Shown here: positions 522-28,513 of the stretch, piece by piece
Numbering within the stretch: position 1 is the first letter of the stretch
How the letters are laid out: each line of letters starts with the position of its first letter
Notes under the pieces: model-generated
Seen by the model: only the letters and a program-made list of their open reading frames with translations
Database searches by the model: none
Told to the model about the DNA's origin: nothing
Program-made: the position numbers and the translations under genes
From: an uncultured Atopobiaceae bacterium
GTDB taxonomy: Bacteria > Actinomycetota > Coriobacteriia > Coriobacteriales > Atopobiaceae
Assembly: GCA_944321005.1 (NCBI GenBank)
Contig: CALUJT010000002.1
Span: 1-29,640, forward strand
Reading direction: 5' to 3'
Length of the DNA stretch: 29,640 bases

Positions 522-1313
522 GTGACTGGCGAGAAGGACGTGACGTCCGGGCGCTTGGGCATGGGCGTGGACATCGGCTCCACGGCTACGAAGGTTGCCG
601 TGGTTGACGCCCGCGGCAACCTCGTGCGCACCGAGCTCATGCCCACTGGCTACTCCAGCGCGGACGCCGCCGAGCGCGCCCGCGCCGCCCTGATGAAAGG
701 GGACAGCCCCTTTTCATCGGCGTGCGTGGTGGCAACGGGCTACGGGCGCGTGGCGGTGCCGTATGCGGACAAGGTGGTGACGGAGATCACGTGCCACGGG
801 CGCGGTGCCGCGAGGATCTTTGGCCCGGAGGGCACCGTGATCGACGTGGGCGGCCAGGACACCAAGGTCATCCGCCTGAGGGGCGGTCGCGTGACCAAGT
901 TCGTGATGAACGACAAGTGCGCGGCGGGCACGGGGCGCTTCCTGGAGATCATGGCCGACCGGCTGGGCGTGAGCCACGACGAGCTGGCCGCGCTGGCGCG
1001 CGCCGGGGAGCCCACGCAGATCACCAGCATGTGCACGGTCTTCGCGGAGAGCGAGGTCATCGGCCTCGTGGGTCGCGGCGAGCCGCGCGAGAACATCGCG
1101 CGCGGCGTAATCGAGAGCGTGGTGGGGCGCGTGGCCACGCTCGTGGGGTCCGCGGGCGGCGCGGCGCCGTACTATCTCACGGGCGGCCTCTGCGACAACG
1201 AATACGTGGTGGAGCGCCTTGGCGAGCGGCTCGGCGCGCGCGTGTCCACGTGTCCGGAGGCGCGCTACGCGGGCGCCCTCGGTGCGGCGCTCGTGGCGCT
1301 GGAGCTTGGGTAG
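522..1313 (+). CDS. Acyl-CoA dehydratase activase-type ATPase (BcrAD/BadFG/HgdC family, YjiL-like)
   Basis: This 263-residue ASKHA-fold ATPase activates the preceding reductase by ATP-driven electron transfer from a [4Fe-4S] cluster held between two subunits. The phosphate-binding loop DIGSTATK is at residues 17-24 and GGQDTK at about 110-115. The cluster cysteines are C133 (NDKCAAGTGRF) and C171 (SMCTVF). Length is normal for the family. The GTG start lies 8 bp after the reductase stop. Residues 58-66 (MKGDSPFSS) are encoded by a copy of the dispersed palindrome at 692-718, which lengthens a surface loop without changing frame. A GAGAAGRAC motif sits in codons 4-6. Family assignment is firm; the physiological partner is inferred from adjacency. 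Confidence 0.9.
   Translation: MTGEKDVTSGRLGMGVDIGSTATKVAVVDARGNLVRTELMPTGYSSADAAERARAALMKGDSPFSSACVVATGYGRVAVPYADKVVTEITCHGRGAARIFGPEGTVIDVGGQDTKVIRLRGGRVTKFVMNDKCAAGTGRFLEIMADRLGVSHDELAALARAGEPTQITSMCTVFAESEVIGLVGRGEPRENIARGVIESVVGRVATLVGSAGGAAPYYLTGGLCDNEYVVERLGERLGARVSTCPEARYAGALGAALVALELG
692..718 (+). repeat. Dispersed palindrome copy inside the activase gene
   Basis: Arms GATGAAAGGGG and CCCCTTTTCATC flank an ACAG loop, giving a hairpin with one bulged base. It belongs to the same broad family as the elements at 2307, 6436, 9874 and 25959 (GGGACAG core). It lies wholly within the open gene and reads through in frame. Confidence 0.7.
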
Positions 1314-1386
1314 GCTGTACGAGACGCAGCCGGGCGTTCTTCTCGCCCGACGCAGGAGGGCCCGCAGGGGCCGGATGGGAGCGAAC

Positions 1387-2037
1387 ATGGCAGAGACGGT
1401 TCTCACGATCGATGCGCGGGGCGAGGCGTGCCCCATCCCCGTGGTGCGCACGCTCAAGGCGCTCGCGGCGCTCGGGGGCCCGGGCAGCGTGGAGACGCTC
1501 GTGGACAACCAGATCGCGGTGCAGAACCTCACCCGCATGGGGGAGGGCAAGGGCTGCACGGTGACGAGCGAGCGCCTGGGCGAGAAGGAGTGGCGCGTGA
1601 CCGTGACGGCCTCGGCGGCGCTGGCGGTCAGCGACGCGGAGGCGGAGTCGGCGACGTGCGAGGTGCCGGCGACGGGCGTAGTTCCGGCCGCGCCCGCGCG
1701 GAAGAACGTGGTGGTGGCCATCACGTCCGAGTGCATGGGCACCGGTGACGACGTCCTGGGGCGCAAGCTCATGGGAAGCTTCGTGTACTCCCTCACGCAG
1801 CTCGAGGAGCTGCCGGCGTGCGTGTTGCTCTACAACGGCGGCGCGCACCTCAGCTGCGAGGGGTCGGCGGCGCTCGAGGACCTGCGGGGACTGGCCGGCG
1901 CCGGCGTGGAGATCCTCACCTGCGGCACCTGCCTCGACCACTACGGCATCGCGGACACGCTGGCTGTGGGCGAGGTCACCAACATGTACGTGATCGCGCA
2001 GCGGCTCACGGGCGCGAGCCTCGTGGTGAGGCCGTAG
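1387..2037 (+). CDS. yedF: Selenium metabolism sulfurtransferase-like protein YedF (TusA-DsrE fusion)
   Basis: The 216-residue protein has an N-terminal TusA/SirA domain with the CPIP motif (C15) and a C-terminal DsrE-like domain from about residue 105. The DsrE part carries the TSECMGTGDD segment, GGAHLSCEG and LTCGTCLDHY. This architecture matches the YedF family linked to SelD-dependent selenium use without selenocysteine (Haft and Self, selenium-dependent molybdenum hydroxylases). It probably carries a persulfide or selenide on cysteine. ATG 1387 is chosen because GGGAG ends 5 bp before it; an in-frame ATG at 1375 is the alternative. The next gene, DUF3343, is a frequent partner. A GAGAAGRAC motif lies in the 73-bp gap upstream (1336-1344, reverse orientation). 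Confidence 0.9.
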   Translation: MAETVLTIDARGEACPIPVVRTLKALAALGGPGSVETLVDNQIAVQNLTRMGEGKGCTVTSERLGEKEWRVTVTASAALAVSDAEAESATCEVPATGVVPAAPARKNVVVAITSECMGTGDDVLGRKLMGSFVYSLTQLEELPACVLLYNGGAHLSCEGSAALEDLRGLAGAGVEILTCGTCLDHYGIADTLAVGEVTNMYVIAQRLTGASLVVRP

Positions 2038-2052
2038 GAACGGCGGTCGGTG

Positions 2053-2389: not shown

Positions 2390-3538
2390 ATGATCTACCT
2401 GGACAACGCGGCGACGACGATGCACAAGCCGCGCGAGGTCGTGGACGCGGTGGCGGCTGCGATGTGCTCGCTCGGCAACGCGGGGCGCGGGGCGTCCGCC
2501 GGTGCGCTCGACGCGGGCCGCGTGGCGCTGCGCTGCCGCGAGGCGGTGGCGCGCCTCCTGGGATGCCCGCGCGCCGACCACGTGTGCTTCTCCGCCAACT
2601 CCACGGCCGCGCTCAACGCGGCGCTGTCCGGCCTGGTGGGGCAGGGCGACCGCGTGGTAACCACGGTCCTGGAGCACAACTCCGTGCTGCGCCCGCTCGC
2701 GCGCCTGGCGGACGAGCGCGGCGCCGAGGTGGCCTACGTGGGCTGCGACGCGCACGGGCTCCTGGATATGGCGGAGCTCGAGCGCCTGGTCGTGCCCGGC
2801 ACGCGCCTCGTGGCGGTGACGCACGGCTCCAACGTGACGGGCAACCTCGTGGACGTTGCGCGTGTGGCAGAGATCGCGCACGCTGCGGGGGCGCTCGTGG
2901 TGGCGGACGCGTCGCAGACGGCGGGCTCCGCACCCGTGGACATGGTCGCCATGGGGCTCGACGTGGTCTGCTTCACCGGGCACAAGGGTCTCATGGGACC
3001 ACAGGGCACGGGCGGCATGGCGGTCGCTGAGGGCGTGGACGTGCGCCCCTGGGCGGAGGGCGGCTCGGGCGTGCACTCGTTCGAGCGGCGCCACCCCCTG
3101 GAGTGGCCCACGCGCATGGAGGCAGGGACGCTCAACTGCCACGGCCTCGCGGGCCTTCTCGCAGGGATCGAGTACATCGAGAAGAACGGGGGGCCCGCTG
3201 CGGTGGGCGCGCGCGAGCACGAGCTCGCGCGGCGGCTCTACGAGGGCGTGCGCGGTGTGCCGGGCGTCACCGTGTACGGCGCCTGGGAGGCGGACCCCGC
3301 GCTCTGCGGCAGCATCGTGGCACTCAACGTGGACGGGCTCGACTCCGCCGAGGTGGCGGACGCGCTCTCCGAGGGTTGGGGCGTCGCCTGCCGCGCCGGC
3401 GCCCACTGCGCGCCGCTCATGCATCGGGCCCTGGGGACGGAGCGTCGCGGAATCGTGCGCCTGAGCTGCGGTTGGTTCAATACCGAGGATGAGATCGACA
3501 CGGTCGTGGCGGCGGTGCGGGAGATTGCCGCAGGGTGA
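2390..3538 (+). CDS. Cysteine desulfurase family protein of the selenium/molybdenum hydroxylase type (class V aminotransferase)
   Basis: This 382-residue PLP enzyme resembles the EF2568-type cysteine desulfurase family (TIGR01977) that co-occurs with selenium-dependent molybdenum hydroxylase genes. It begins with the family-typical MIYLDNAATT. The PLP lysine is K199 in FTGHKGLMGP, and the ASQTAG segment precedes it. The likely catalytic cysteine is C340 in RAGAHCAP, as in the SufS/CsdB type; C334 is nearby. It would release sulfur from cysteine, or selenium from selenocysteine, as a persulfide or perselenide for YedF, DUF3343 or the XdhC domain. ATG 2390 fits the family N terminus; an upstream in-frame GTG at 2381 is possible. 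A GAGAAGAAC motif lies in the gene at 3179. Confidence 0.9.
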   Translation: MIYLDNAATTMHKPREVVDAVAAAMCSLGNAGRGASAGALDAGRVALRCREAVARLLGCPRADHVCFSANSTAALNAALSGLVGQGDRVVTTVLEHNSVLRPLARLADERGAEVAYVGCDAHGLLDMAELERLVVPGTRLVAVTHGSNVTGNLVDVARVAEIAHAAGALVVADASQTAGSAPVDMVAMGLDVVCFTGHKGLMGPQGTGGMAVAEGVDVRPWAEGGSGVHSFERRHPLEWPTRMEAGTLNCHGLAGLLAGIEYIEKNGGPAAVGAREHELARRLYEGVRGVPGVTVYGAWEADPALCGSIVALNVDGLDSAEVADALSEGWGVACRAGAHCAPLMHRALGTERRGIVRLSCGWFNTEDEIDTVVAAVREIAAG

Positions 3539-3720: not shown

Positions 3721-5547
3721 ATGCTGGTCGTTATTCGCGGAGCGGGGGACATCGCCTCGGGCATAGCGCTGCGCCTCTTCCGTGCGGGCATGCAGGTGGT
3801 GATGTGCGACCTCGCGGTCCCCACGTCCATCCGACGGACCGTGTGCTTCTCGGAGGCAATACGTCTGGGCGAGGTCTGCGTGGAGGACGTTCGCGGCGTG
3901 CTGTGCGAGAGCGCGGCGTCAGCGCTCGGGGAGGCTGCCGCCGGCAACGTGGCGGTTCTGGTGGACCCGGCTGCTCGCTGCGTGGAAGAGCTTCGCCCGG
4001 GAGTCCTCGTGGACGCGATTCTGGCAAAGCGCAATCTGGGCACCGCGCGCGACATGGCGCCGGTGGTGGTGGGCGTGGGACCGGGCTTCACCGCCCAGGT
4101 GGACTGCGACGCCGCCGTGGAGACCATGCGCGGCCACTACCTGGGGCGCGTCTACTACGACGGCTCGCCGATCCCCAACACGGCCGTGCCCGGGCTCATT
4201 GGCGGCTACGCGGGCGAGCGTGTGATGCGCGCGCCGGCTGACGGCGTCTTCGAGCCCTGCGTGGAGATAGGCGCGCAGGTCAAGGCTGGTGACGTCTGCG
4301 CCACCGTGAACGGTGAGCCAATGCGCGCGACCATCGACGGCGTGGTGCGCGGCCTTCTCCAGGCGGGCGTGCCCGTGCGCGAGGGCATGAAGTCCGGGGA
4401 CGTGGACCCGCGCTGCCACCCGGAGTACATCCGCAGCTCTTCCGACAAGGCGCTGGCCGTGGGCGGCGGCGTACTGGAGGCGATCCTCTCGCTCTCCGGT
4501 GCGCTGAGCGGCACGGAAGCCGTGCGCGAAGGAGCCGGACGTGCCGAGAAGAACGCGGCGCCCGCGACCGCCAGCGGGTCGACCCTCTCGGACGTCGCCC
4601 TCGTCGACGCCGTAACGGCCGAGCTCGCCGCTGGCGGGACCGTGGGGCTTGCGAGCCTGCTCGCCACGCGCGGCTCGATGCCGCGGCACGAGGGCGCGCG
4701 CCTCGCCGTGACGGCAGACGGGCGCCTGCTCGGGACCGTCGGCGGGGGCGCGATGGAGCAGATCGCGATCGAGCGCGCCCGGGCGGCGCGCGACGGGGGC
4801 GCTGCGAGCCTCGAGTGGGTGACGAGCAGCCGGAGCGACATGGCCTGCGGCGGGGACGCCCTGCTCGCCGTGCGCGCGCTCGCTCCCGACGACCTGCCCG
4901 TTCTTCTCGCCCTGAAGGGGGTTCTGGAGGCCGGCGGAACGGCGGTGCTCAGGGAGGACTGGTCCGACCCCTCCGCGCCCGTCATGAGCATCGCGGAAGA
5001 CTCGTGTCCGTCTGGCGCGCGCTGGGACGAAGCTTCCGGCATCTATCGTGAAAGCGTCGCTTCACCAAGCGGGCTTCACGTCTTCGGCGCCGGGCACGTG
5101 GGCGCGGCCCTCGTGGGGATGGCAGCCGCCGCGGGCTTCGAGTGCTACGTCTACGACGACCGCCCGGAGCTCGCCACGGCGGAGCGCCTCCCGCTGGCGG
5201 CATCCGTGACCTGCGGCTCGTTCGAGGAGCTGGCTGCATCCGCGCCCATCGGCCCACGCGATTTCGTCGTCGTGCTCACGCACGGGCATGTCCACGACGA
5301 GGCTGTTCTTCTCGCCGTTCTTACACGTGACGTACAGCCCGCGTACGTGGGCTGCATCGGGAGTCGCCGCAAGTCCGCCCTCGCGCGCGAGCACCTCGCT
5401 GTCACGGGGGTGCCGCAGGGGCGCGTGGACGCCGTGGCCATGCCCATAGGCGAGGCCATCGGCGCCGTCACGCCGGCGGAGATCGCCGTGTCGATTCTTG
5501 CCCAGCTGGTCAGTCGTCGTGCGCAGCTGCGCGCGGCAAGGGGATAG
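3721..5547 (+). CDS. YqeB-XdhC fusion: selenium-dependent molybdenum hydroxylase maturation protein
   Basis: This protein (608 residues from ATG 3721) joins two maturation factors. Residues ~1-263 are YqeB (EF2563 type), beginning VVIRGAGDIASGIA with a Rossmann-like glycine motif and containing YYDGSPIPNT and a short biotinyl-lipoyl-like stretch (APADGVF...GAQVKAGD). After a linker of about 25 residues, ~290-600 is an XdhC/CoxI protein with the N-terminal LLATRGSMPRHEGA block, CGG, and the Rossmann part GLHVFGAGHVG. XdhC proteins bind and sulfurate the pterin cofactor before insertion into xanthine dehydrogenase-type enzymes. YqeB is a marker of the selenium-dependent version. The two are normally separate genes. 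ATG 3721 has AGGGGG 10 bp upstream; ATG 3712 is in frame but too close to it. Confidence 0.9.
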   Translation: MLVVIRGAGDIASGIALRLFRAGMQVVMCDLAVPTSIRRTVCFSEAIRLGEVCVEDVRGVLCESAASALGEAAAGNVAVLVDPAARCVEELRPGVLVDAILAKRNLGTARDMAPVVVGVGPGFTAQVDCDAAVETMRGHYLGRVYYDGSPIPNTAVPGLIGGYAGERVMRAPADGVFEPCVEIGAQVKAGDVCATVNGEPMRATIDGVVRGLLQAGVPVREGMKSGDVDPRCHPEYIRSSSDKALAVGGGVLEAILSLSGALSGTEAVREGAGRAEKNAAPATASGSTLSDVALVDAVTAELAAGGTVGLASLLATRGSMPRHEGARLAVTADGRLLGTVGGGAMEQIAIERARAARDGGAASLEWVTSSRSDMACGGDALLAVRALAPDDLPVLLALKGVLEAGGTAVLREDWSDPSAPVMSIAEDSCPSGARWDEASGIYRESVASPSGLHVFGAGHVGAALVGMAAAAGFECYVYDDRPELATAERLPLAASVTCGSFEELAASAPIGPRDFVVVLTHGHVHDEAVLLAVLTRDVQPAYVGCIGSRRKSALAREHLAVTGVPQGRVDAVAMPIGEAIGAVTPAEIAVSILAQLVSRRAQLRAARG

Positions 5548-6510: not shown

Positions 6511-6521
6511 GAAGGGGGACG

Positions 6522-7217
6522 ATGGACTGGTACCCGCTCATAAACTCGCTGCGCATCGCCGCCGTCGCTACGGTGGTGGTCTTCTTCGCGGGCGTCTGGC
6601 TCGCCAACCTCGTGGCGCGCGCGCCGCGGGCCGTGAAGGGCGTGCTCGACGTTGTGCTCACGCTGCCGCTGGTGCTGCCGCCCACGGTGGTGGGCTACCT
6701 GCTGCTCATTCTCCTGGGGCCGCGCCGCCCGCTCGGCGCGCTTGCGGCGGAGCTCCTGGACGTGCGCCTCACGATGGTGTGGTACGCGGCGGTCTTCGCC
6801 ACCGTGGTGGTGAGCTTCCCGCTCATGTACCGCACGGCGCGCGGGGCCTTCGAGTCCTTCGACGAGACGCTTGCGGACGCCGCCCGCACGCTCGGCCACT
6901 CCGAGCGCTGGGTCTTCTGGCGCGTGAAGATGCCGTGCTGCGCGCAGGGGATCGTGGCCGGCGCCGTGCTCGCGTTCGCGCGGGCGCTCGGCGAGTACGG
7001 CGCCACGTCTATGCTCTGCGGCTACACCCCCGGCTCCACGGCCACGGTGGCGACGACGGTCTACCAGCTCTGGCGCACCGGGGACGACGCGGGCGCCCTC
7101 ACGTGGGTGCTCGTGAACCTGGCGATCTCCGCGGTGGTCCTTCTCGCCCTCAACTGGTTCGAGGCGTACGGGCGCGGGGCCGGCACGGCGCGGGCGAGAA
7201 GGACGGTGGCGCGGTGA
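6522..7217 (+). CDS. modB: Molybdate ABC transporter permease
   Basis: This 231-residue inner-membrane permease belongs to the ModB/CysT family. It starts MDWYPLINSLRIA, typical for ModB. About five membrane segments are visible, including 9-27, 41-63 and the C-terminal VNLAISAVVLLAL. The coupling loop (EAA motif) is DAARTLGHSERWVFWRVKMP followed by GALGEYG-like ARALGEYGA, where it contacts ModC. AGGGGG precedes the ATG. Its stop overlaps the GTG start of modC, so the two are translationally coupled. A GAGAAGRAC motif occurs in both orientations near its 3' end (7137 reverse, 7196 forward). Confidence 0.93.
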   Translation: MDWYPLINSLRIAAVATVVVFFAGVWLANLVARAPRAVKGVLDVVLTLPLVLPPTVVGYLLLILLGPRRPLGALAAELLDVRLTMVWYAAVFATVVVSFPLMYRTARGAFESFDETLADAARTLGHSERWVFWRVKMPCCAQGIVAGAVLAFARALGEYGATSMLCGYTPGSTATVATTVYQLWRTGDDAGALTWVLVNLAISAVVLLALNWFEAYGRGAGTARARRTVAR

Positions 7218-8338
7218 GCCTCTCCGTCGACATTCGCAAGCGCCTGGGGTCCTTTAGCCTCGACGTGTCCTTCGAGGTCGCGGACGGGCGCGAGATCCTG
7301 GCGCTGCTGGGCCCCTCCGGCTGTGGCAAGTCCCTCACGCTCAAGTGCATCGCGGGCGTGCTCGCCCCGGACGAGGGGCGCATCGTGCTCAACGGGCGCA
7401 CGCTCTTCGACTCCGAGGCGCGCGTGAACCTCCCGCCCCAGCGGCGGCGCGTGGGCTACCTCTTCCAGCAGTACGCGCTCTTTCCCAACATGACGGTCGC
7501 GGGCAACATAGGCGCCGGCGCGGTGGGAGCCTCGCGCGAGGAGCGCGCACGCCGCGTGGCAGAGCAGGTGCGCGCCTTCCGCCTGGAGGGGCTCGAGCGC
7601 CTGCGTCCCGCCCAGCTCTCCGGCGGGCAGCAGCAGCGCGTGGCGCTCGCGCGGATCCTCGCCGGGGACCCGGAGCTCATCCTGCTGGACGAGCCGTTCT
7701 CCGCACTTGACGGGCACCTGCGCTGGGAGCTCGAGATGATGCTCGCGGACGTGCTGCGCGCGTTCCCGGGCGGCGCGGTGTACGTGAGCCACAACCGCGA
7801 CGAGGTCTACCGCCTCTGTGATACCGTGTGCGTGGTCGACCGCGGCCGCTCGGAGGAGAAGCTCACCATCGCGCAGCTCTTCTCCACGCCCACCACGCTG
7901 GCTGCGGCGCTCATCTCTGGCTGCAAGAACGTCTCCCGCCTTGACAGCTGGCCCGGGGCCAGCTGTCAAGTTGACAATCGGCCCGGGGCCAACTGTCAAG
8001 GCGGGGTGCTTGCCTGCAGGGACTGGGGCGTTTCCCTCACGACCTCCCTCCCTGTGCCGCCCAACGTGACGCACGCGGGTCTGCGCGCCCACTACCTGCG
8101 CGTCTTTGCAGACCCGGCCAACGCCGCGGGCCTGCCCAACCAGATTCCCTGCACCGTCGAGCGCGTGATAGACTCAACGTTCTCGACCATCGTCATGCTG
8201 GCCACGCCGGGCGGCGCGCTTCTGCGCTACGAGTGCGAGAAGGACGCGTGGGCGCCGCTCGCCGGCGCGCGGGAGCTCGTCGTGACGGCGGACCCGAGCA
8301 TCGTGATGCCGCTCGTGGGAGGTGAGGCGGATGCGTAG
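7214..8338 (+). CDS. modC: Molybdate ABC transporter ATP-binding protein
   Basis: This 374-residue ATPase powers ModB. It has Walker A GPSGCGKS (33-40), Q-loop LFQQYALFPN, signature LSGGQQQR (135-142), Walker B ELILLDEPFSALD (154-166) and the H-loop in YVSHNRDE. The GTG start overlaps the modB stop. The C-terminal part (about 230-374) resembles a degenerate TOBE-type regulatory region. Residues ~243-262 (LDSWPGASCQVDNRPGANCQ) are encoded by two tandem palindromes at 7941-7999, an apparent in-frame insertion that added three odd cysteine/proline-rich turns between the ATPase core and the C-terminal domain. It ends 8 bp inside moaA. Confidence 0.92.
   Translation: MSLSVDIRKRLGSFSLDVSFEVADGREILALLGPSGCGKSLTLKCIAGVLAPDEGRIVLNGRTLFDSEARVNLPPQRRRVGYLFQQYALFPNMTVAGNIGAGAVGASREERARRVAEQVRAFRLEGLERLRPAQLSGGQQQRVALARILAGDPELILLDEPFSALDGHLRWELEMMLADVLRAFPGGAVYVSHNRDEVYRLCDTVCVVDRGRSEEKLTIAQLFSTPTTLAAALISGCKNVSRLDSWPGASCQVDNRPGANCQGGVLACRDWGVSLTTSLPVPPNVTHAGLRAHYLRVFADPANAAGLPNQIPCTVERVIDSTFSTIVMLATPGGALLRYECEKDAWAPLAGARELVVTADPSIVMPLVGGEADA
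7941..7999. repeat. Tandem palindromes inserted in frame in modC
   Basis: Two 29-nt units (7941-7969 and 7971-7999) are separated by one base. The first has perfect 13-nt arms TTGACAGCTGGCC / GGCCAGCTGTCAA around CGG. The second has two mismatches. The TTGACA...TGTCAA ends match those of the 2307-2370 palindrome, although the core differs. The reading frame is preserved. Confidence 0.85.
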
Positions 8339-9350: not shown

Positions 9351-9351
9351 C

Positions 9352-16682: not shown

Positions 16683-16811
16683 GAGGTGGCGCTCCTTCTG
16701 GTTGTGGCGCTTCTCCTCAAGTGTATCCGGGCGTCCGGGCTGGCGGAAGACCGTGCGCTGGCGAGAAGAACGAAGAGCAGGCGTACGGGTAGCTGCGCAA
16801 CAGCCCGTTTC

Positions 16812-18228: not shown

Positions 18229-18287
18229 GAATCTCCCCTCGACGTTCTTCTCGCCAATTCTACCCATCATCTCGGGGCACTGTCGCG

Positions 18288-19857: not shown

Positions 19858-20364
19858 GTGGGCGAGAAGAACGAGCGGACGGACGAGGCGGAGCGCCTGG
19901 TCGGCGAGCACTACGCGGACGTGCTGCGGTACTGCCGCAGGCACGCGCCGGCGGGGCTCGCCGAGGACGCCGCCCAGGAGACGTTCCTGCGCTTCGTCCG
20001 CGCCCGCTCGCGCTACCGGGAGCGGGGCCGCGCCCGCGCCTACCTCGTCACCATCGCACGCAACGTCTGCGCCGACATGGCGCGCGACCGCGCGTCGTCG
20101 TGGGCGGAGCTCCCGGAGGCGATTCCCGGCGGGGGCGACCCGGGCGAGGCGGACGACCGCCGCGACCTGGCCTCGGCCCTTGCGCGGCTGCCCCGCGCCC
20201 AGCGCGAGGCGCTCGAGCTCAGGTACGGGGAGGGCCTCACGGTCGGCGAGGTGGGCGCCGCGCTGGGTATGAGCAGGTTCGCGGCGGCGCGCGCCCTGTC
20301 GGCGGCGCTCGAGGCGCTGCGGGCGGACCTGGGCGTTCGAGACGAGAAGGGCAGGGAGGTCTGA
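19858..20364 (+). CDS. ECF-type RNA polymerase sigma factor
   Basis: The 168-residue protein has sigma region 2 (HYADVLRYCRRHAPAGLAEDAAQETFLRFVR, then RARAYLVTIARNVCADMARD) and region 4 (LASALARLPRAQREALELRYGEGLTVGEVGAALGMS). There is no region 3, as in extracytoplasmic-function sigma factors. The GTG start follows AGAAGGAGG by 7 bp; the longer upstream reading frame lacks a site. The next gene encodes a membrane protein 1 bp after its stop, the position where an anti-sigma factor usually sits. An ABC transporter follows. The sigma factor probably drives this operon in response to an envelope or antimicrobial signal, which is inferred from layout. A GAGAAGAAC motif is in codons 3-5. Confidence 0.9.
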   Translation: MGEKNERTDEAERLVGEHYADVLRYCRRHAPAGLAEDAAQETFLRFVRARSRYRERGRARAYLVTIARNVCADMARDRASSWAELPEAIPGGGDPGEADDRRDLASALARLPRAQREALELRYGEGLTVGEVGAALGMSRFAAARALSAALEALRADLGVRDEKGREV

Positions 20365-20365: not shown

Positions 20366-21130
20366 ATGAGGATGCGAGAGAGACGCGCCCTCGAGGACGC
20401 GCTGCGAGAGCACTACCGGGCGGCGCCCGGCACCGACGCCGCCGCGCCCCGCGCGCTCGTGGAGGCGGTCGCGGCGGAGATGGCCCGGCCCTCCCGGCCG
20501 CGAGCCGCGGAGGCGGTCGCCGGGCAGGCGCGCCGCGTCGGGGCGTGGGCGTGGGCGCTGCACGGGGCGCTCGTTCTTCTCGCCGTGCCGTGCGCTCTCT
20601 CCGGGGTCGGCGTCGGGACGGTCGCGGCGGCCCTCGGGGCGGCGCTCGCGCTCGCCTCGCTCGCGGGCGTCACGCGCTCGCGCTCCTGCGGCATGGCCGA
20701 GCTCGAGGCCGCCTGCCCCGTTAACGCCCAGGCTGCCGCGTGCGCCCGGGGGCTCGTGCTCTGCTGCGCGGACGCGCTCGCGATCTCCCTGCTCGCCGCC
20801 CTCGCCGGCTCGGCGGGGGGCGCGCCCTGGGCCGTGCTCGCCCAGGGGCTCGCGCCCTACCTCGCGGCCCTCGGGGCGGGGCTCCTCGCCGCCCGCCGCG
20901 CGGCGAGCCCGGACGCGACCGTCGCCGCCGTCGCCGCCGCGGCCGGGGTGTGCGCCGCCTGCGTCCTCGTGCGCACCATCTGCCCGGCTGCCTTCGGCCC
21001 CGCGGCGGCGCTCGCCTGGTGGGCGGCAGTGGCCGCAGCCCTCGCCTTCGCCGCGGCCCAGGCCCGCGCGTGGCTGCGCGCGGCGGCCTCCGGCTTCGCC
21101 GACGCGCCCGCGCCCGCCGGGGCGCTCTAG
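20366..21130 (+). CDS. Multi-pass membrane protein, possible anti-sigma factor
   Basis: The 254-residue protein has a charged cytoplasmic N terminus of about 55 residues (RRALEDALREHYRAAPG ... VEAVAAEMARPSRP) and then about six alanine-rich membrane segments, near 60-80, 83-102, 124-146, 154-175, 188-210 and 213-232. No known domain was recognised. It follows the sigma factor with 1 bp between stop and start, and GGGAGG lies about 7 bp before the ATG. Position and topology suggest it binds the sigma factor at the membrane. The sequence has no zinc-finger HxxxCxxC motif, so this is context only. It might instead be part of the transporter. Confidence 0.7.
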   Translation: MRMRERRALEDALREHYRAAPGTDAAAPRALVEAVAAEMARPSRPRAAEAVAGQARRVGAWAWALHGALVLLAVPCALSGVGVGTVAAALGAALALASLAGVTRSRSCGMAELEAACPVNAQAAACARGLVLCCADALAISLLAALAGSAGGAPWAVLAQGLAPYLAALGAGLLAARRAASPDATVAAVAAAAGVCAACVLVRTICPAAFGPAAALAWWAAVAAALAFAAAQARAWLRAAASGFADAPAPAGAL

Positions 21131-21253: not shown

Positions 21254-22183
21254 ATGGAACTGACGCTCGACCGGCTGACCCGGGAGTTCGGGCCCAAGAT
21301 CGCCGTGGACCGCGTGAGCGCGACGCTCGGACCCGGCGTCTACGGCCTGCTCGGCGCCAACGGCGCCGGCAAGACCACGCTCATGAGGATGGTGTGCGGG
21401 GTGCTGCGCCCCACCTCGGGCGAGGTGCGCTACGACGGCGCGCCCGTCGCGCGCATGGGCGACGAGTACCGCGCCCTCCTCGGCTACCTGCCGCAGGACT
21501 TCGGCTACTACCCCGAGTTCACGGCGCTCGACTTCATGGAGTACATGGCCGCCCTCAAGGGCCTCGGCCGGCGCGACGCGCGCGACCGCTCGCTCGCGCT
21601 GCTGGAGCGCGTGGGGCTCGGCGGAGAAGAACGGCGCCGCATTCGGACCTTCTCCGGCGGCATGCGCCAGCGCCTCGGCATCGCGCAGGCCGTCCTCAAC
21701 GACCCCGAGGTCCTCGTGCTCGACGAGCCCACGGCAGGTCTCGACCCCAAGGAGCGCGTGCGCTTCCGCAACCTCATCGCCGGCTTCGCGCGCGACAAGA
21801 TCGTCCTTCTCTCCACCCACATCGTCTCGGACGTGGAGCACATCGCCGACGAGATCCTCGTGATGAGGGCGGGATCGGTGGTGCTCTCGGGGCCGCCGGC
21901 GGGGCTCGTCGCTGAGGCCGAGGGGAGGGTCTGGGAGGCCGTCATCCCGGCCGAGCAGGCCGAGGCGCTCGAGGCCGCGCTCACAGTGGGCAACGTCCGC
22001 CACCTCGAGGGCGGGCGGGCGCTCCTGCGCTACGTGGCCGACGAGCCCAGGGTGCCGGGCTCCGCCCCCGCCGAGCCCACGCTCGAGGACCTGTACCTGT
22101 ACGTGTTCCGCGACGGCGCTGCCGGGGCGGGCTCGCCCCGCGCCGCCCGCGGGTCCCACTTCAAGGAGGGACGCCATGGCTAG
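21254..22183 (+). CDS. ABC transporter ATP-binding protein
   Basis: This 309-residue ATPase has Walker A GANGAGKTT (about 34-42), Q-loop LGYLPQDFGYY, signature FSGGMRQR, Walker B EVLVLDEPTAGLDP and the H-loop in LLSTHIVSD. The PQDFGYYPEFTALDF stretch and the C-terminal domain (about 220-309) resemble BcrA/NatA-like exporters for peptides or drugs. A 123-bp gap separates it from the membrane protein gene; I see no clear promoter there. It overlaps the permease gene by 8 bp, so ATPase and permease are coupled. A GAGAAGAAC motif lies inside (21624), with a reverse copy at 21803. Confidence 0.93.
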   Translation: MELTLDRLTREFGPKIAVDRVSATLGPGVYGLLGANGAGKTTLMRMVCGVLRPTSGEVRYDGAPVARMGDEYRALLGYLPQDFGYYPEFTALDFMEYMAALKGLGRRDARDRSLALLERVGLGGEERRRIRTFSGGMRQRLGIAQAVLNDPEVLVLDEPTAGLDPKERVRFRNLIAGFARDKIVLLSTHIVSDVEHIADEILVMRAGSVVLSGPPAGLVAEAEGRVWEAVIPAEQAEALEAALTVGNVRHLEGGRALLRYVADEPRVPGSAPAEPTLEDLYLYVFRDGAAGAGSPRAARGSHFKEGRHG

Positions 22184-23441
22184 GCTCATCTTGTTCGAGC
22201 TCAAGAAGATGCTCTCCCGCCGCGTGGCGCTCGTGGCAAACGTCGGCGTCGTCGTCTTTCTCGTCGCCATCATGGCGCTCAACGTGGTCCAGACCAAGAC
22301 GGAGAACGCCCGGGGCGAGATTGTCTCCGGCACCGAGGCGATCGCGCAGATGCGCGCCGACGCCGAGGAGCACGCGGGCACGATAACCGCCGAGTGCGCA
22401 GCGGCGGACATAGCCGCCTACCAGGAGACGGTCTTCTCGCGCATCGACCGCGACGCCGTGACCCAGATGACGGGCTCGGCCGTCTATGACCTCATGTTCC
22501 AGAGCTTCTCCGACGAGGAGGTCTACGAGCTCTACAACCCCTACTGGAGCTGGCTGCTGCGCCCCTGGCGAATCTCGGGCGAGGAGCCCGCGCAGACAGC
22601 CGTCCGCGTGACGCCCGAGATGGCGGCCGACTGGTACGGCGCGGCGGCGGGGCTCACCCAGCAGTCCCTCGACGACGGCCAGGGTGGCATGTGGGAGTAC
22701 TCCGACGCCGAGCGGGCGTACTGGACGGACCTGCGCTCCTCCGTGCCAGAGCCCATCGAGTACGGCTACTCGGGCGGCTGGGGCAACGTGGTCGACTGCG
22801 CGGCCTTCCTCGTCTTCCCGATCCTCGCCGCGTGCGTGACGCTGGCGCCCGCGTTCTCCTTCGAGTACAGCTCCGGCGCCGACGCGGTGGTGCTCGCCAC
22901 CCGGCGCGGCCGCTCGACGCTCGTGGCCGCCAAGGTCGTGGCGGGGCTCGCCTACGCGACCGCCCTCTTCGCCCTCAGCGCCGCCATCATCGTGGGGGCC
23001 TCGCTCACCTTCTACGGGGCTGACGGCTTCGGGCTCTCGATCCAGAGCATGGCGCTCACGTCACCGTACCCGCTCACGGCGGGGCAGGCCGCGCTCGCAT
23101 GCGTGGGGCTCATGTACGCCGCGTGCCTGGGCTTCTCGTGCCTCACGCTCGCGCTCTCGTCGCGCACTCCCTCGACGCTCACGGTCTTCCTCGCGGACGT
23201 GGCGCTCGTGCTGCTCACGGGACTCGTCCCCTCGGCCGGCGTGGGTGTGCTCGAGCGGGTGCTCGCACTCTTCCCGATCAACTTCGCCAACTTCAGTGTG
23301 CTCTTCTCGGCGCTCGAGTCCTACCCGCTCGGCCCGGTCGTGCTCGACCTCATCGGCACGGTCCTTCTCGTCTACGCGGCGCTCGTGCTCGTCTCGACCC
23401 CCGTGGCGGTGGTCTCGTTCAGGAGGCGCCAGGTGGCGTAG
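22176..23441 (+). CDS. ABC transporter permease (ABC-2-like)
   Basis: This 421-residue protein starts LILFELKKMLSRRVALVANVGVVVFLVAIMALNVV, the N-terminal membrane segment typical of ABC-2-type permeases. A hydrophilic extracytoplasmic region of about 160 residues follows (about 45-205), rich in acidic residues. About five more membrane segments follow, beginning NVVDCAAFLVFPILAACVTLAPAF. FSFEYSSGADAVVLATRRGRS is the short cytoplasmic loop likely to touch the ATPase. It is co-transcribed with the ATPase upstream. The substrate is unknown; the sigma factor in the same operon suggests envelope stress or antimicrobial peptide export. Confidence 0.88.
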   Translation: MARLILFELKKMLSRRVALVANVGVVVFLVAIMALNVVQTKTENARGEIVSGTEAIAQMRADAEEHAGTITAECAAADIAAYQETVFSRIDRDAVTQMTGSAVYDLMFQSFSDEEVYELYNPYWSWLLRPWRISGEEPAQTAVRVTPEMAADWYGAAAGLTQQSLDDGQGGMWEYSDAERAYWTDLRSSVPEPIEYGYSGGWGNVVDCAAFLVFPILAACVTLAPAFSFEYSSGADAVVLATRRGRSTLVAAKVVAGLAYATALFALSAAIIVGASLTFYGADGFGLSIQSMALTSPYPLTAGQAALACVGLMYAACLGFSCLTLALSSRTPSTLTVFLADVALVLLTGLVPSAGVGVLERVLALFPINFANFSVLFSALESYPLGPVVLDLIGTVLLVYAALVLVSTPVAVVSFRRRQVA

Positions 23442-23558: not shown

Positions 23559-24749
23559 ATGCTGTCAGCGGTCGGCTACGAGGAGCTTCCTTGGCACATC
23601 GATCCAAACGAGCGGGACCTCATTCCCCGAAGCGCTCGCAGGAGGATATCGACGACCTATCAGGTGTCCATTCCAGCCACCATTGCCAATCTCAGCCTGG
23701 CGGTCTCGGAGGCCACCTCAGCGCGCATCGACGATCTGCTGATGAGACTCGCCCGCTTCGACGAGGCACAGGCTGCACGTGGCTACGATCTGCCTGCGCT
23801 CCTGCTGCGGAGTGAGTCCGCGGCAAGTTCTCAGATCGAGCACCTCACCTCGAGCGTCCGCAATGTCGCCCTTGCCGAGCTCTCGAACGACGCTCCGGCT
23901 AACGCGCGCATCGTTCAGGGCAACGTCGCGGCCATGCGTGAGGCGCTCAAACTGCCGCCGGAGATCTCGATTGAGCAGATCAAGGCGATTCATCGCTCCC
24001 TGATTGAGCCAACGGGGGCGTCGTTCGGGGGAGAGTTGCGAGACGAGCAGGTGTGGGTCGGCGGGACGGCATATATCCCGCATGGGGCACTCTTCGTTCC
24101 GCCCGTCCCAAGCCGCATCACAGGCTGCCTTGAGGATCTTGTCGCTTTTGTCAGCAGGGACGACGTCAGCCCGATTGCCAAGGCGGCGCTTGCGCACGCG
24201 CAGTTCGAGACCATCCACCCCTTCATCGACGGAAACGGGCGCACGGGCAGGGTCCTTCTCCACCGTATTCTCAGAAACGAGGGCGTGCTCACGCGCACCA
24301 CGCTGCCCGTCTCCGCAGGGCTTCTCCACGACGTTGACGCCTACATGGGGGCAATCAAGGCCTATCAGGGTGGCGACTACCTGTCCATTGTAGAGAGCGT
24401 GTTGAGCGCGCTCGAGCTCGCCCTCGTCATCGGCGGTCGAGTCTCCGGTCTCATTGACGATGTGATGGAAGGCTGGAGGTCTGCCATTTCCGAGCGCGCC
24501 GGGTCGGCCATCTGGCGCCTTCCGCCGCTGCTGGCAGAGCAGCCTGTTGTTACCATCGCATATGTCGCGGAGCACCTGTCGATCACTCCGCGTGCCGCCT
24601 CGACCCTGGTCGCGAGGGCGTGCGAGTACGGGATGCTGCGCCCCCTAGGGTCGCGCCGGCGCGGCGACTTCTACCAGAGCGACGGGCTCATCGACGTTCT
24701 TGAGGAGATTTCGAGCATGGCGGGCATTCGTCGCATGCTCGCGCGGTGA
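23559..24749 (+). CDS. Fic-family protein with Fic_N and winged-helix domains
   Basis: The 396-residue protein (from ATG 23559) has an N-terminal Fic_N-like region (VSIPATIANLSLAVSEATS), then SSQIEH at about 90-95, the position of the inhibitory (S/T)xxxE(G/N) helix, with His in place of Gly/Asn. The catalytic motif HPFIDGNGRTGR is at about 220-231. The target-clamp stretch is VWVGGTAYIPHGALFVPP. The C terminus is a winged helix (VAEHLSITPRAASTLVARACEYGML). Such proteins AMPylate targets. Start choice is uncertain: GGGGGG lies about 8 bp before ATG 23559, while ATG 23520 has only a weak site. It is unlike the HTH-Fic protein at 14610, with the HTH at the opposite end. Confidence 0.87.
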   Translation: MLSAVGYEELPWHIDPNERDLIPRSARRRISTTYQVSIPATIANLSLAVSEATSARIDDLLMRLARFDEAQAARGYDLPALLLRSESAASSQIEHLTSSVRNVALAELSNDAPANARIVQGNVAAMREALKLPPEISIEQIKAIHRSLIEPTGASFGGELRDEQVWVGGTAYIPHGALFVPPVPSRITGCLEDLVAFVSRDDVSPIAKAALAHAQFETIHPFIDGNGRTGRVLLHRILRNEGVLTRTTLPVSAGLLHDVDAYMGAIKAYQGGDYLSIVESVLSALELALVIGGRVSGLIDDVMEGWRSAISERAGSAIWRLPPLLAEQPVVTIAYVAEHLSITPRAASTLVARACEYGMLRPLGSRRRGDFYQSDGLIDVLEEISSMAGIRRMLAR

Positions 24750-25100
24750 GACAAAGGGGACGGCGATCTGGTCGTCCTCGCTTGGCTCGGTGCCGTCCAT
24801 GAGGGTGGCCCACTCCACGGAGACGTCATCGACGGAGAGCTCGCCGTCGCACGCGACCTCGTAGCTCATTGGCTCAAAGAACCCGGAGTTGGACTCGGTG
24901 GATACCGTCGCCGTGCCCGGCGCTGCCTACGTCACCCGCACGGTGTAGTAGATGACGTCCGCCTCCGAGCTCACGTACTTCTCGTTGGGCGAGACCGTCT
25001 CCTCAAAGACAACCGTTCCGCCTGAGGAGGTCCCGCAGCCGAGAAGAACGAGTGCGCACGCCAGGCAGAGCGTCGCAAGAACCGCAGTCAGTCTCCTCAT
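24750..25100 (-). pseudogene. Degraded lipoprotein gene with an in-frame stop
   Basis: From ATG 25100 (AGGAGG 6 bp upstream) the frame reads MRRLTAVLATLCLACALVL with lipobox LLGC, and then FEETVSPNEKYVSSEADV. A TAG stops it after 57 codons (24927-24929). The same frame continues open with AAPGTATVSTESNSGFFEP, then SYEVACDGELSVDDVSVEW and DGTEPSEDDQIAVPF, which looks like real secreted-domain sequence. The 3' end is cut where it meets the Fic gene at a GACAAAGGGGAC repeat fragment. I read this as a lipoprotein gene broken by a nonsense change and truncated by rearrangement. The remaining 24750-25158 holds nothing else except a GAGAAGAAC motif at 25041. Confidence 0.65.
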
Positions 25101-25983: not shown

Positions 25984-27030
25984 CCCGCCAACGACGACGC
26001 TCTTCTCGCCGCGGGGGACGGCGCGGCCGATGATCGCCGCGGGAAGGCCCTCGTCGCGCAGGGCGCCAGCCAGGCGCTCCGCGTCCTTCTCGGGCAGGGC
26101 CAGAAGCAGCCCGCCAGAGGTCTGCGGGTCAAAGAGCACGTCAGTGAGGTCGAGCGGCAGCGCCTCGTCGAGCGCCACACGCGGGCCGAAGAAGTCTCGG
26201 TTGCGGTAGGTGCCGGCGGGGATGAGCCCGAGCGCAGCCATCTCGCGGGCGCGTGCCATGACGAGCACCGCGGCAGCGTCGATCACGAGCGTGACGCCGG
26301 AGGCCTCGGCCATCTCGCAGGAGTGCCCCATGAGCGAGAAGCCCGTGACGTCCGTGGCCGCGTGCGGCCAGGCGCCCAGCTCGCGGGCCAGGCGGATGGG
26401 AGCCTCGTTGAGCGTGGTCATGGAGTCCGTGGCCACGCGCACGCCGGCGTCGTCCAGGATGCCGCCCTTGTGCGCGGTGGTGAGGACGCCCGTGCCGAGC
26501 GCCTTGGTGAGCACGAGCGCGTCACCCACGCGGGCGCCCCCGTTCTCCAGGCGCTCGTCCAGCTGCACGAAGCCCGTTACCGCGAGGCCGTACTTGGGCT
26601 CGTGGTCGTTGATCGAGTGCCCTCCCGCCACGACGCACCCGGCGCGCCGGCACGTCTCCGCGCCGCCGGCCAGAATCTGGCCTGCGACCTCGATGCCCAG
26701 GCAGTTGGGGAAGCACAGGAGGTTGAGCGCGAGCGCGGGCCGGCCGCCCATCGCGTAGACGTCGGAGAGCGCGTTGGTGGCCGCGACCTGGCCAAAGAGG
26801 AACGGATCGTCCACCATGGGCGGGAAGAAGTCCGTGGTGGCTATGAGGCCGCGGCCGTCTCCCAGGTCCCACACGCAGGCGTCGTCGGAGGCGTCAAAGC
26901 CCACCACGAGCTCCGGCGCGTCCAGGCGCGGCAGTCCGGACAGCACACCCGCGAGCTCTCCCGGGGCGATCTTTGCCGCACAGCCCGCGGCCTCCACCAG
27001 CTCCGTGAGCCTCACGCCCGTCATGTCCAT
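25981..27030 (-). CDS. selD: Selenide, water dikinase (selenophosphate synthetase)
   Basis: This 349-residue enzyme makes selenophosphate from selenide and ATP. Active-site Cys and Lys are in AAGCAAKIAPG, with cysteine in the position that is selenocysteine in some homologues. The ATP/metal residues lie in ATTDFFPPMVDDP and AATNALSDVYAMGG, and GGHSINDHEPKYG and ATDVTGFSLMGH follow in family order. ATG 27030 has GGGGG 5 bp upstream; ATG 27042 lacks a site. It stands alone, away from yedF and the YqeB-XdhC gene, but should feed them. No selA, selB or tRNA-Sec is in the window, so a role in selenium-modified molybdenum enzymes is likely but not proven to be the only one. Confidence 0.95.
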   Translation of the reverse strand: MDMTGVRLTELVEAAGCAAKIAPGELAGVLSGLPRLDAPELVVGFDASDDACVWDLGDGRGLIATTDFFPPMVDDPFLFGQVAATNALSDVYAMGGRPALALNLLCFPNCLGIEVAGQILAGGAETCRRAGCVVAGGHSINDHEPKYGLAVTGFVQLDERLENGGARVGDALVLTKALGTGVLTTAHKGGILDDAGVRVATDSMTTLNEAPIRLARELGAWPHAATDVTGFSLMGHSCEMAEASGVTLVIDAAAVLVMARAREMAALGLIPAGTYRNRDFFGPRVALDEALPLDLTDVLFDPQTSGGLLLALPEKDAERLAGALRDEGLPAAIIGRAVPRGEKSVVVGG

Positions 27031-27129: not shown

Positions 27130-27158
27130 GCCGAGTCGTCAGTTCCTAGCCCGCGCGG

Positions 27159-27530
27159 CTAGTTCTCGTCTGCCGCGAGGGAGGAGTCGCACTCCGCGCG
27201 CGTGCGCTCGATGCGCCTGAGCAGGGACTCCTTGAGCTCGTACGTGTGCGAGCGGGCGATGTCGCCGGCCTCGTGCGTGATGAAGCGGAAGAAGTAGTGG
27301 CCGTCGAAGTCCTCGTAGATGCGGAACTTGGGCGTGGACTCGCGGTCGAAGGCGTCGATCGTGCTGTCCTCGATCTCCGCGTCTGCGGCGGAGGCGCGCA
27401 CGCACTCGATGCCGTGCAGGCACTCGTCCTTGGACGGGAAGATGATCGACGACATGAGGATGTGCCCGTTGGAGGCACAGAGGTTGAAGCAGTAGCGGCC
27501 CTCGTTCTCAACCACGACGTACTGACCCAT
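27159..27530 (-). CDS. YegP-like (DUF1508-type) small protein
   Basis: This 123-residue protein appears to be two related halves. The first half is YCFNLCASNGHILMSS with FPSKDECLHGIECVR, which matches the DUF1508/YegP pattern (xFxLKASNGxxI...SK..C..GI..V). The second is KFRIYEDFDGHYFFRF followed by ARSHTYELKESLLRRIERTR. DUF1508 repeats are small beta-rich units of unknown function. ATG 27530 is preferred over the upstream TTG because GGTGGTG lies just ahead. It is preceded on its own strand by a 360-bp region without a gene and followed by a hairpin terminator. Confidence 0.72.
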   Translation of the reverse strand: MGQYVVVENEGRYCFNLCASNGHILMSSIIFPSKDECLHGIECVRASAADAEIEDSTIDAFDRESTPKFRIYEDFDGHYFFRFITHEAGDIARSHTYELKESLLRRIERTRAECDSSLAADEN

Positions 27531-27892
27531 AGGAATCACCACCAAACTCGATTTACCTACCGATTACAAAAGGTTAGCTCGGCCGACCTCGGTTGGATGC
27601 GGGAGGTTCGCGGGCGGTCGGATTTGCTCGGGGAGGCGACGCGCAGCGGGCCAATAGACGGCAGCTGCGGGGAGGCGGGCAGGAGGGGCGGACGATAAGA
27701 ACGGCGTCCCGCAACGTGGGAACGGTTACGACCGGCCCGAATGGGGTAGGTATTCCATACACGCCACGGGCTGGCGTGGTCGGGGGACGCGCCAGCCCGC
27801 CAGCTCACGAGAGGGGCCCCGGTCGCAGGTGGCTGCGACCGGGGCCCCGTTGTTTCAGGTGGCGAGAAGAGCGGGTGGGCTGGTCCTTCTCG
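27531..27892. other. Gene-free region with three hairpins
   Basis: No credible gene is seen. Hairpins: GGGCTGGCG/CGCCAGCCC (27768-27776, 27790-27798); a 15-bp perfect stem GGGGCCCCGGTCGCA / TGCGACCGGGGCCCC (27813-27827, 27834-27848), a strong terminator candidate for the iorAB operon; and GCGAGAAG/CTTCTCGC (27862-27869, 27886-27893), an inverted pair of the GAGAAGRAC-type motif touching the iorB stop. A short - strand ORF (27557-27808) has no features of a real protein. Confidence 0.6.
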
Positions 27893-28513
27893 CTAGCGGG
27901 CCTCGCCGCGGAGCGCCGCGTCGCGGCCGGCCTCGAAGGCGGCGAGGTTGGCGTCCACGGTCGCCGCGGGGACGCAGGCGCGCACGGCGTCGCGCCAGAG
28001 CTCCACGTCGAAGGGCAGCGCCGTGGAGAGCGCGCCCACGAGCACCACGTTGGTGGAGCGGGGCGTCCCCAGGCCGCGGGCGATGACGCCGGCGTCCAGC
28101 AGGTGGGCGCCCATCTCGCGCAGGCGCTCGTCCACACGCTCGGGCATCTGGAAGTTGCCGATGTTCACGGAGACGGGCGTGATCTCTTCGTCGTTCACGA
28201 ACATGCGGCCGCCGGGAGCGAGGAAGTGCTGGGCGCGCAGGGCCTCCACGGCCTCGAAGGCCACCACCACGTCGGCGCAGCCGTCGTCGCAGACCATGGT
28301 GGAGACGTGCTCGCCCAGGCGGATGACGGTGGAGACGGACCCGCCGCGCTGGCTCATGCCGTGGATCTCGGAGACCTTGACGTCGAGGCCCGCGTCGGCG
28401 GCAACCGTGGCGAGGAGCTTGCCGGCGAGGATGGTGCCCTGGCCGCCCACGCCCACGAGCAGGATGGTCTTGGTGCCCGTGACGAGGGCGCCGTTCTTCT
28501 CGGTATCTGCCAT
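27893..28513 (-). CDS. iorB: Indolepyruvate:ferredoxin oxidoreductase, beta subunit
   Basis: This 206-residue subunit works with IorA to oxidise aryl pyruvates from aromatic amino acids to aryl-acetyl-CoA, reducing ferredoxin. It carries the gamma-type domain of 2-oxoacid oxidoreductases: ILLVGVGGQGTILAGKLL (about 17-34), then SEIHGMSQRGGSVSTVIRLG, which binds CoA or contacts the TPP subunit. The C-terminal FDVELWRDAVRACVP is family-typical. AAGGAG lies 7 bp before ATG 28513. It follows iorA with 4 bp between. In anaerobic gut or oral bacteria this supports amino acid fermentation and may supply reduced ferredoxin. Confidence 0.95.
   Translation of the reverse strand: MADTEKNGALVTGTKTILLVGVGGQGTILAGKLLATVAADAGLDVKVSEIHGMSQRGGSVSTVIRLGEHVSTMVCDDGCADVVVAFEAVEALRAQHFLAPGGRMFVNDEEITPVSVNIGNFQMPERVDERLREMGAHLLDAGVIARGLGTPRSTNVVLVGALSTALPFDVELWRDAVRACVPAATVDANLAAFEAGRDAALRGEAR

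Follow-up and report, generated by a model that had tools for sequence, protein, structure and literature searches.

Known DNA uptake tags are placed by a review in the Pasteurellaceae and the Neisseriaceae (PMC5031613). The DNA uptake sequence (DUS) of the Neisseriaceae is described as occurring in one to several thousand copies per genome, about 1,900 of them in Neisseria meningitidis, with an invariant core and dialects (PMC3630211), and integrative elements of Neisseria have been found by their atypical DUS content (PMC7371117). The uptake signal sequence (USS) of the Pasteurellaceae has a GCGG core within AAGTGCGGT or ACAAGCGGT (PMC12616744); one of its orientations is reported to be the commoner in frame, with a bias to gene ends (PMC2346458). 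For monoderm bacteria, a 2025 paper describes uptake as lacking sequence specificity (PMC12153270). The actinobacterium Micrococcus luteus needs its tad genes for transformation (PMC4322843), a process described as involving a Tad pilus together with ComEA and ComEC (PMC4322843, PMC6370729). Here we describe a short motif, GAGAAGRAC (R, purine), that recurs about once per kilobase on both strands of a 29,640-base stretch of DNA, hereafter the window (contig CALUJT010000002.1 of an uncultured member of the Coriobacteriia), and we argue that it probably serves as a DNA uptake sequence, a non-palindromic self tag of about 12 bases for natural transformation (rough probability 0.7).

The motif resembles the Neisseriaceae DUS in being short and non-palindromic, in its number (1,212 copies in the source genome, 600 on the forward and 612 on the reverse strand), in its inverted pairs, and in its scarcity in relaxase-linked stretches (0.08 versus 0.54 copies per kb). 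The DUS occurs in terminators; here, T-runs accompany 14 of 40 perfect inverted pairs. It differs in its core, GAGAAGNNC rather than the CTG-centred GCCGTCTGAA, in its monoderm host, and in its machinery: strong hits to the PilB-type ATPase of type IVa pili are confined to a few of the genomes tested, and the source genome has one T2SSE match, which is Tad-like. With the Pasteurellaceae USS it shares a 9-base core, and here the sense copies favour gene starts while the antisense copies are unbiased. The GCGG core of the USS is nonetheless unrelated to the present motif, and the host is again a monoderm. As in M. luteus, and as known from genes alone, comEC, comEA, dprA, tad and prepilin peptidase genes are present; unlike here, no uptake sequence is mentioned for M. 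luteus in excerpts of PMC4322843 and PMC6370729.

Results

Abundance and codon constraint

An exact recount of the window returned 28 copies of GAGAAGRAC, 13 forward and 15 reverse, between positions 531 and 28501, just as the original prediction, made from the letters of the window, had claimed. In 100 dinucleotide shuffles of the window the mean was 0.28 copies and the largest number 2. The "hundredfold" excess that had been claimed therefore holds against dinucleotide shuffles, but shrinks to about sevenfold against an order-3 Markov model (83 copies versus 10.4 and 101 versus 14.2) in a 317-kb sample consisting of the window and stretches of 15 contigs. Apart from such samples of stretches, our counts are whole-genome pattern counts. 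The source genome (2,235,813 bases; an assembly of 294 contigs, 85% complete) holds its 1,212 copies far above expectation, while the same pattern read backwards, our control, occurs just 60 times (33 forward, 27 reverse). The recurring over-representation of GAGAAGRAC is real. It is denser in the window (0.94 per kb) than in the genome (0.54 per kb; Poisson P = 0.004), and regular spacing of the copies was sought and found absent (coefficient of variation of the distances 0.98).

Genes in the sample were called with a home-made codon-model caller, and synonymous codons were shuffled within each gene, which preserves both the protein and its codon usage (300 shuffles). The 184 sampled copies consist of 68 in-frame sense copies encoding Glu-Lys-Asp/Asn (37%), 8 in other sense frames, 56 antisense copies, and 52 in gaps between genes, the last spread over 53 kb at about one per kb. 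After shuffling, 60.4 sense copies were still found versus 76 observed, whereas antisense copies fell from 56 to 7.4 (standard deviation 2.5; maximum 16 in 300 shuffles). Thus, the sense copies are mostly due to protein content, and the antisense copies are not. For the window alone the corresponding figures are 10 antisense copies versus 0.8, 13 sense copies versus 8.9, and 5 copies in gaps. These data support the claim that selection acts at the level of DNA rather than protein; confinement of the motif to sense Glu-Lys-Asp/Asn codons was not seen, antisense and gap copies both being in excess. They likewise agree with the proposed antisense reading as GTY-CTT-CTC (Val-Leu-Leu), which is in frame at 9 sites of the window, and with the claim that it draws on seldom-used codons (in the sample, 7.8% of the Leu codons are CTT and 6.1% of the Val codons are GTT). 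Among the gap sites originally named, 1336, 13087, 16763 and 27883 stand, but 18244 lies in a called gene, and 25041 is an additional gap site. Of the 76 sense copies, 27 lie in the initial fifth of their gene, an enrichment (P = 0.001); no such bias was found for antisense copies (10 of 56). The caller fails at 46-55% GC (coding fraction 0.00-0.48 for genomes G221, G248, G174, G056, G044 and G060), and the pooled codon statistics exclude these genomes.

Extent of the element and spread among lineages

Next to copies of the motif, position -3 is occupied by G (0.72), -1 by C (0.84) and +9 by G (0.64), and short gaps anchored on GAGAAG alone give the consensus G-N-C-GAGAAG-R-A-C-G, or GNCGAGAAGRACG. 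In antisense, G-N-C-GAGAAGRAC-G occurs 18 times versus 0.5 in shuffled genes (30 shuffles, 317-kb sample). GAGAAGRAC is one form of a longer degenerate element, roughly GNC-GAGAAG-NN-CG (GNCGAGAAGNNCG), whose form in the genus of the window is GNC-GAGAAG-RA-CG and whose shared core is GAGAAG-NN-C. By position, variants of the two bases that follow GAGAAG reach an enrichment of about 2.5-fold; at the other seven positions, one-mismatch variants show no clear enrichment (0.5-1.8 fold, with a Markov null inflated by the motif itself).

Among 27 sampled genomes of the genus, 26 have 695-1,674 copies (reversed control 46-70) and one, G170, has 330 (control 88). The genus is probably GTDB Thermophilibacter, and its family, f1 below, probably Atopobiaceae. 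Inverted core pairs (CGAGAAG-N3-30-CTTCTCG) should be favoured less by codon choice, and hence provide a cleaner phyletic test. Across 396 genomes of the class, 54 have 20-76 pairs and 342 have 0-15 (reversed control 0-13). The pair-rich genomes include all 27 of the genus (20-76 pairs each; control 0-5), members of the f1 genera g3, g8, g9, g10, g12, g18 and g22, and, outside f1, each of the four genomes sampled from g44 (family f3) and a single genome (g66) of family f5. When 84,980 named species genomes were searched for a stringent perfect pair, 39 stretches were found, 38 of them labelled as members of the Atopobiaceae or Coriobacteriaceae (Olsenella, Thermophilibacter, Parafannyhessea, Lancefieldella, uncultured Atopobiaceae, and a Coriobacteriaceae metagenome-assembled genome) and one as Saccharothrix; viral contigs yielded none.

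Outside f1 the pairs are patchy, occurring in the single genera g44 and g66 with few in sampled sister genera, which either repeated loss or transfer of the specificity could explain. G374 in family f9 is borderline, with 15 pairs. Within genus g9, G245 has 629 copies and 20 pairs, versus 248 copies and 5 pairs in G114.

In the stretches sampled, antisense copies of the core GAGAAGNNC number 83 versus 28 after shuffling in G170 (6 versus 2.6 for the RAC form), 47 versus 15 in G217 of g18 (RAC 5 versus 2.0) and 38 versus 12 in G278 of g24 (RAC 1 versus 0.8). The corresponding figures are 29 versus 20 in six other low genomes, 18 versus 10 in two g25 genomes, and 3 versus 4.0 in pooled stretches of g6, g13 and g14. 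The bases after GAGAAG are RA (GA or AA) in 52 of 94 gap copies of the source-genome sample and in 2 of 26 from G170, GAGAAG..C being enriched in both; inside genes of the source-genome sample the RA preference is weaker (56 of 210 antisense copies). These comparisons, with small samples outside the genus and no second consensus, only suggest that the NN preference is lineage-specific, which would recall the DUS dialects. The best words from de novo counting of k-mers in 180 kb of G170 were CACGGCCACG (20 versus 3.0), the core form CGAGAAGCGC (22 versus 4.0) and, in genes, AGAAACGA (12 versus 1.0), all three enriched to about the same degree, so that a replacement motif in G170 is conceivable; none in these 180 kb reaches the strength of the motif in G195, where z goes up to 18. 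The idea that G170 is a species without competence genes was rejected, since ComEC, ComEA, Tad genes and DprA are all kept.

Site turnover, mobile DNA and orientation

The conservation of single sites was followed in 19 orthologous gene groups from 13 genomes of the genus, with columns counted over 14 genomes including G170. Codons within antisense CGAGAAGNNC are kept at 0.80, versus 0.68 for the same codons elsewhere. Conservation among relatives holds for genomes, 26 of 27 in the genus being motif-rich, but is just modest for single sites: the density of the motif is kept while single sites turn over.

The prophage portal family PF04860 had no match in 31 genomes of the genus, and relaxase regions were used in place of prophages (matches in 8 of the 31 genomes, ten hits). 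Eight of the ten hits were counted, those of G304 and G352:C7 being left out, which gave eight stretches from seven genomes plus two flanks from G195 (193 kb; the rate is the same without the flanks). By the relaxase match alone, these stretches are putatively mobile. Their density is 0.08 per kb (15 copies; 0-5 per stretch), versus 0.54 per kb (184 copies; 4-16 per stretch) in 17 control stretches from four of the seven genomes (340 kb; P = 7e-21, copies treated as independent). Antisense copies number 7 versus 3.1 expected in the relaxase-linked set and 56 versus 6.1 in the controls, and GC content is mostly similar (0.62-0.71 and 0.66-0.72, respectively).

Of the alternatives to an uptake sequence, the one that survives best is a chromosome-wide binding site of a nucleoid or segregation protein in the Coriobacteriales, of which one per 1-2 kb would be kept. 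Such a site would be spread widely and without polarity, could turn over at conserved density, and would be nearly absent from relaxase-linked DNA, all as seen here. Yet it would not in itself predict head-to-head pairs, some of them in terminator-like positions, or lineage shifts beside a shared core, and we know of no nucleoid or segregation protein with about 1,000 exact 9-mer sites. We judge it unlikely, though worth keeping in mind. A target of restriction-modification or methylation is a good deal less probable still. An asymmetric core of 6-9 bases would suit it, and scarcity in mobile elements could be read as avoidance. However, chromosomes usually avoid restriction sites, and this motif is instead enriched there; the relaxase-linked count lies near background rather than below it, with 15 copies seen and 8.2 expected under the Markov model; and one core persists across many genera, unlike fast-changing restriction systems.

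For orientation we used GC skew, taken over 44 stretches that cover 877 kb of the genus, in place of a finished origin-to-terminus map. The strand split over these stretches shows no overdispersion (chi-square 34.0), which, with the balance of 600 to 612 genome-wide, upholds the claimed absence of strand bias. The RAC form is found 222 times on the G-rich and 252 times on the C-rich strand (P = 0.18), and the broader CGAGAAGNNC tilts slightly to the C-rich strand (574 versus 669; P = 0.008). A recombination signal like Chi, which the original prediction had offered as an alternative, or a DNA-translocation signal like the FtsK-orienting polar sequences (KOPS) or architecture-imparting sequences (AIMS), would also be a short asymmetric motif over-represented across the genome, but signals of both kinds are strand-polar. 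Since the strand split is balanced over the 44 stretches, such polarity is disfavoured, and for the RAC form the symmetry excludes a Chi-like one; the slight tilt of CGAGAAGNNC falls far short of it. Signals of this type are accordingly very improbable here.

Convergent CGAGAAG arms at a distance of 3-40 bases form 12 pairs in the sample, of which 6 lie in gaps. For the window, the claimed use of the motif in hairpins applies to two such pairs: that at 27863-27892, which lies in a gap, and that at 11842-11890, within a gene. Among 40 perfect pairs from stretches of named genomes, the Saccharothrix one included, 14 have a run of at least four T within 15 bases of an arm, compared with 1.5% of random positions (not matched for gaps). 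These T-run-flanked pairs look like intrinsic terminators, termination itself being only predicted. Simple recurrence of a terminator, or of another element acting at the RNA level, would account for the inverted pairs, for the half that lie in gaps, and for the T-runs elsewhere, but it would leave aside the 132 of 184 sampled copies that lie within genes, 56 of them antisense, and just 12 convergent pairs are found in 317 kb; we give this explanation hardly any credence. Finally, an artefact of codon usage or base composition, to which the 68 ordinary Glu-Lys-Asp/Asn copies might point, can practically be dismissed, given antisense copies nearly eightfold above protein- and codon-preserving shuffles, about one copy per kb in gaps, only 60 copies of the reversed pattern, and relaxase-linked stretches of mostly similar GC that are nearly without the motif.

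Competence genes

Of 140 family genomes, 137 have ComEC (PF03772), among them the source genome and all 101 that are of high quality. All 26 genomes tested have a match to the T2SSE ATPase; seven of these belong to the genus, and all seven are positive for a Tad-type ATPase. A check for com and pil genes in the source genome found ComEC, DprA, a prepilin peptidase and a single T2SSE match that resembles a Tad ATPase, together with a partial ComEA-like protein upstream of ComEC. Of its Tad system the ATPase alone was found, the Tad locus itself being read in relatives. In G195 this locus encodes a 59-residue Flp-type pilin and TadE/F/G-like proteins, and a ComEA-ComEC pair lies elsewhere in the genome; we take these to be the Tad and ComEA/ComEC proteins from their position and familiar resemblance. 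Within the genus, DprA is found in 30 of 31 genomes and the prepilin peptidase in 31 of 31 (one below the family cut-off).

Strong PilB-type hits, in addition to the Tad-like ATPase, occur in G118, G242 and G239 among the 26 genomes, with weaker partial hits in some others, and in G369 among 21; G239 is from a motif-poor genus. G308 (family f7) has no T2SSE match above the cut-off. On contig C172 of the source genome (L062, 1543-2095), two small genes lie between comEC and the next gene, presumably a toxin-antitoxin pair (RelE/ParE-like and Phd/YefM-like), and these are not there in G195.

Copies and neighbouring genes in the window

Table 1. Positions of GAGAAGRAC copies and of the inverted core pair at 27863-27892 in the 29,640-base window.
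Feature	Position	Strand	Context
Motif copy	531..539	+	in gene, sense frame 0
Motif copy	1336..1344	-	gap
Motif copy	3179..3187	+	sense frame 0; arm of divergent pair 3155-3184
Motif copy	4546..4554	+	sense frame 0
Motif copy	4900..4908	-	antisense in gene, Val-Leu-Leu codons
Motif copy	5305..5313	-	antisense in gene, Val-Leu-Leu codons
Motif copy	7137..7145	-	antisense in gene, Val-Leu-Leu codons
Motif copy	7196..7204	+	in gene, out of frame (sense frame 2)
Motif copy	8237..8245	+	sense frame 0
Motif copy	9358..9366	+	sense frame 0, just within called gene start
Motif copy	10710..10718	-	antisense in gene, Val-Leu-Leu codons
Motif copy	11843..11851	+	sense frame 0; arm of in-gene pair 11842-11890
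Motif copy	13087..13095	+	gap
Motif copy	13589..13597	-	in gene, antisense frame 2
Motif copy	13782..13790	-	antisense in gene, Val-Leu-Leu codons
Motif copy	15224..15232	+	in gene, out of frame (sense frame 2)
Motif copy	16763..16771	+	gap
Motif copy	18244..18252	-	sense frame 0, close to called gene start
Motif copy	19864..19872	+	sense frame 0, just within called gene start
Motif copy	20573..20581	-	antisense in gene, Val-Leu-Leu codons
Motif copy	21624..21632	+	in gene, out of frame (sense frame 1)
Motif copy	21803..21811	-	antisense in gene, Val-Leu-Leu codons
Motif copy	23361..23369	-	antisense in gene, Val-Leu-Leu codons
Motif copy	24252..24260	-	antisense in gene, Val-Leu-Leu codons
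Motif copy	25041..25049	+	gap (by home-made gene calls)
Motif copy	26083..26091	-	sense frame 0
Inverted core pair CGAGAAGAGC ... GTCCTTCTCG	27863..27892	.	adjoins stop end of called gene 27893-28513
Motif copy within pair 27863-27892	27883..27891	-	gap
Motif copy	28493..28501	-	sense frame 0, just within called gene start

Among the genes of the window, those at 5612-11456 match a solute-binding protein, a permease and an ABC ATPase, followed by MoaA-, MoaC/MOSC- and MoCF-type proteins, with an XdhC-like gene upstream; this is probably a cluster for molybdate transport and molybdenum cofactor. Two repeats of other kinds were met in relatives. Across 160 kb of G195 stretches, TTTTCAGGAC, some other repeat, is present 10 times versus 0.0 expected, and G116 C1:1-20000 (genus g44) contains a repeat array with words such as GGGGAGCAC and CAGCGGGGAT at 44-49 copies, which we take to resemble a CRISPR (clustered regularly interspaced short palindromic repeats) array.

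Discussion

The abundance of the motif, its codon-independent excess, strand symmetry, inverted pairs, spread, lineage variation and depletion in relaxase-linked stretches, and the presence of com and tad genes, are all computed features. In combination they fit uptake sequences better than the other genome-wide signals familiar to us, and a DNA uptake sequence is our best reading; the likeness suggested by the original prediction gains support from the symmetry, the pairs, the depletion in relaxase-linked stretches, the lineage variation and the com and tad genes. Binding, uptake, a receptor and a drive from transformation we infer, along the following lines. On free double-stranded DNA, the tag would be bound by a receptor at the cell surface, probably one of the minor pilins of the Tad/Flp pilus; this pilus would draw the tagged DNA to ComEA, ComEC would pass one strand inward, and DprA and RecA would recombine it. 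Tagged fragments would enter more often, so that mutations creating or keeping a tag would be carried back into genomes. Tags would then accumulate at places under little constraint from protein or RNA, namely in antisense, at N-termini, in gaps and in terminator hairpins, and newly arrived mobile elements would be without them.

We consider it fairly probable that the motif represents a third self-DNA uptake code, evolved independently and the first in a monoderm, in which GAGAAGNNC would be read via the Tad/Flp pilus and lineage variants would limit exchange between genera. An independent origin is suggested because the core is unrelated to the CTG-centred DUS and to the GCGG-centred USS. 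The claim that no such tag had been described in Coriobacteriia agrees with the literature searched, in which we found no earlier report: an uptake tag in Coriobacteriia, Actinobacteria, Actinomycetota or Atopobiaceae/Olsenella was not among the matches listed, those for Actinobacteria dealing mostly with Neisseriaceae and Pasteurellaceae, and with bioRxiv and most subscription journals outside the scope. The matches listed for the 9-mer GAGAAGGAC seem, by title, to concern primers, aptamers and the like.

Several observations weigh against an uptake sequence. First, we know of no uptake or transformation in Coriobacteriales. Second, the machinery does not follow the motif: ComEC occurs in the family independently of it, and com and tad genes are present in motif-poor genera too. 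In G170, a member of the same genus that has ComEC, Tad and DprA, no RA preference is seen. No receptor stands out either, because the Tad locus is alike in motif-rich and motif-poor lineages. When twelve Tad-locus proteins of G195 were compared with 13 other loci (several of them short, with distal genes out of view), and ComEA over 27 loci including that of G195, none followed the motif across the loci compared. Third, any chromosomal signal that builds up slowly should be depleted in mobile DNA, and single stretches overlap in their counts (0-5 copies in mobile versus 4-16 in control ones). Fourth, at the level of sites, the RAC form alone has no conservation excess (0.002, standard error 0.038), 19 of 49 motif columns are confined to one species as single sites turn over, and one of six control motifs outscored the motif, presumably owing to a few conserved columns.

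If the motif is indeed an uptake sequence, a code of this kind in a monoderm would show that neither an outer membrane nor type IVa pili are indispensable for specificity. Accumulation of tags by uptake bias alone has been argued (PMC1939737), and the present motif would add a third case to the question of uptake bias alone versus selection. The existence of several lineages with and without the tag would allow the receptor to be sought by co-evolution, for which G245 and G114 of genus g9 form a natural pair. Few genetic tools are known to us for these bacteria, and the tag may offer a practical handle for transforming them.

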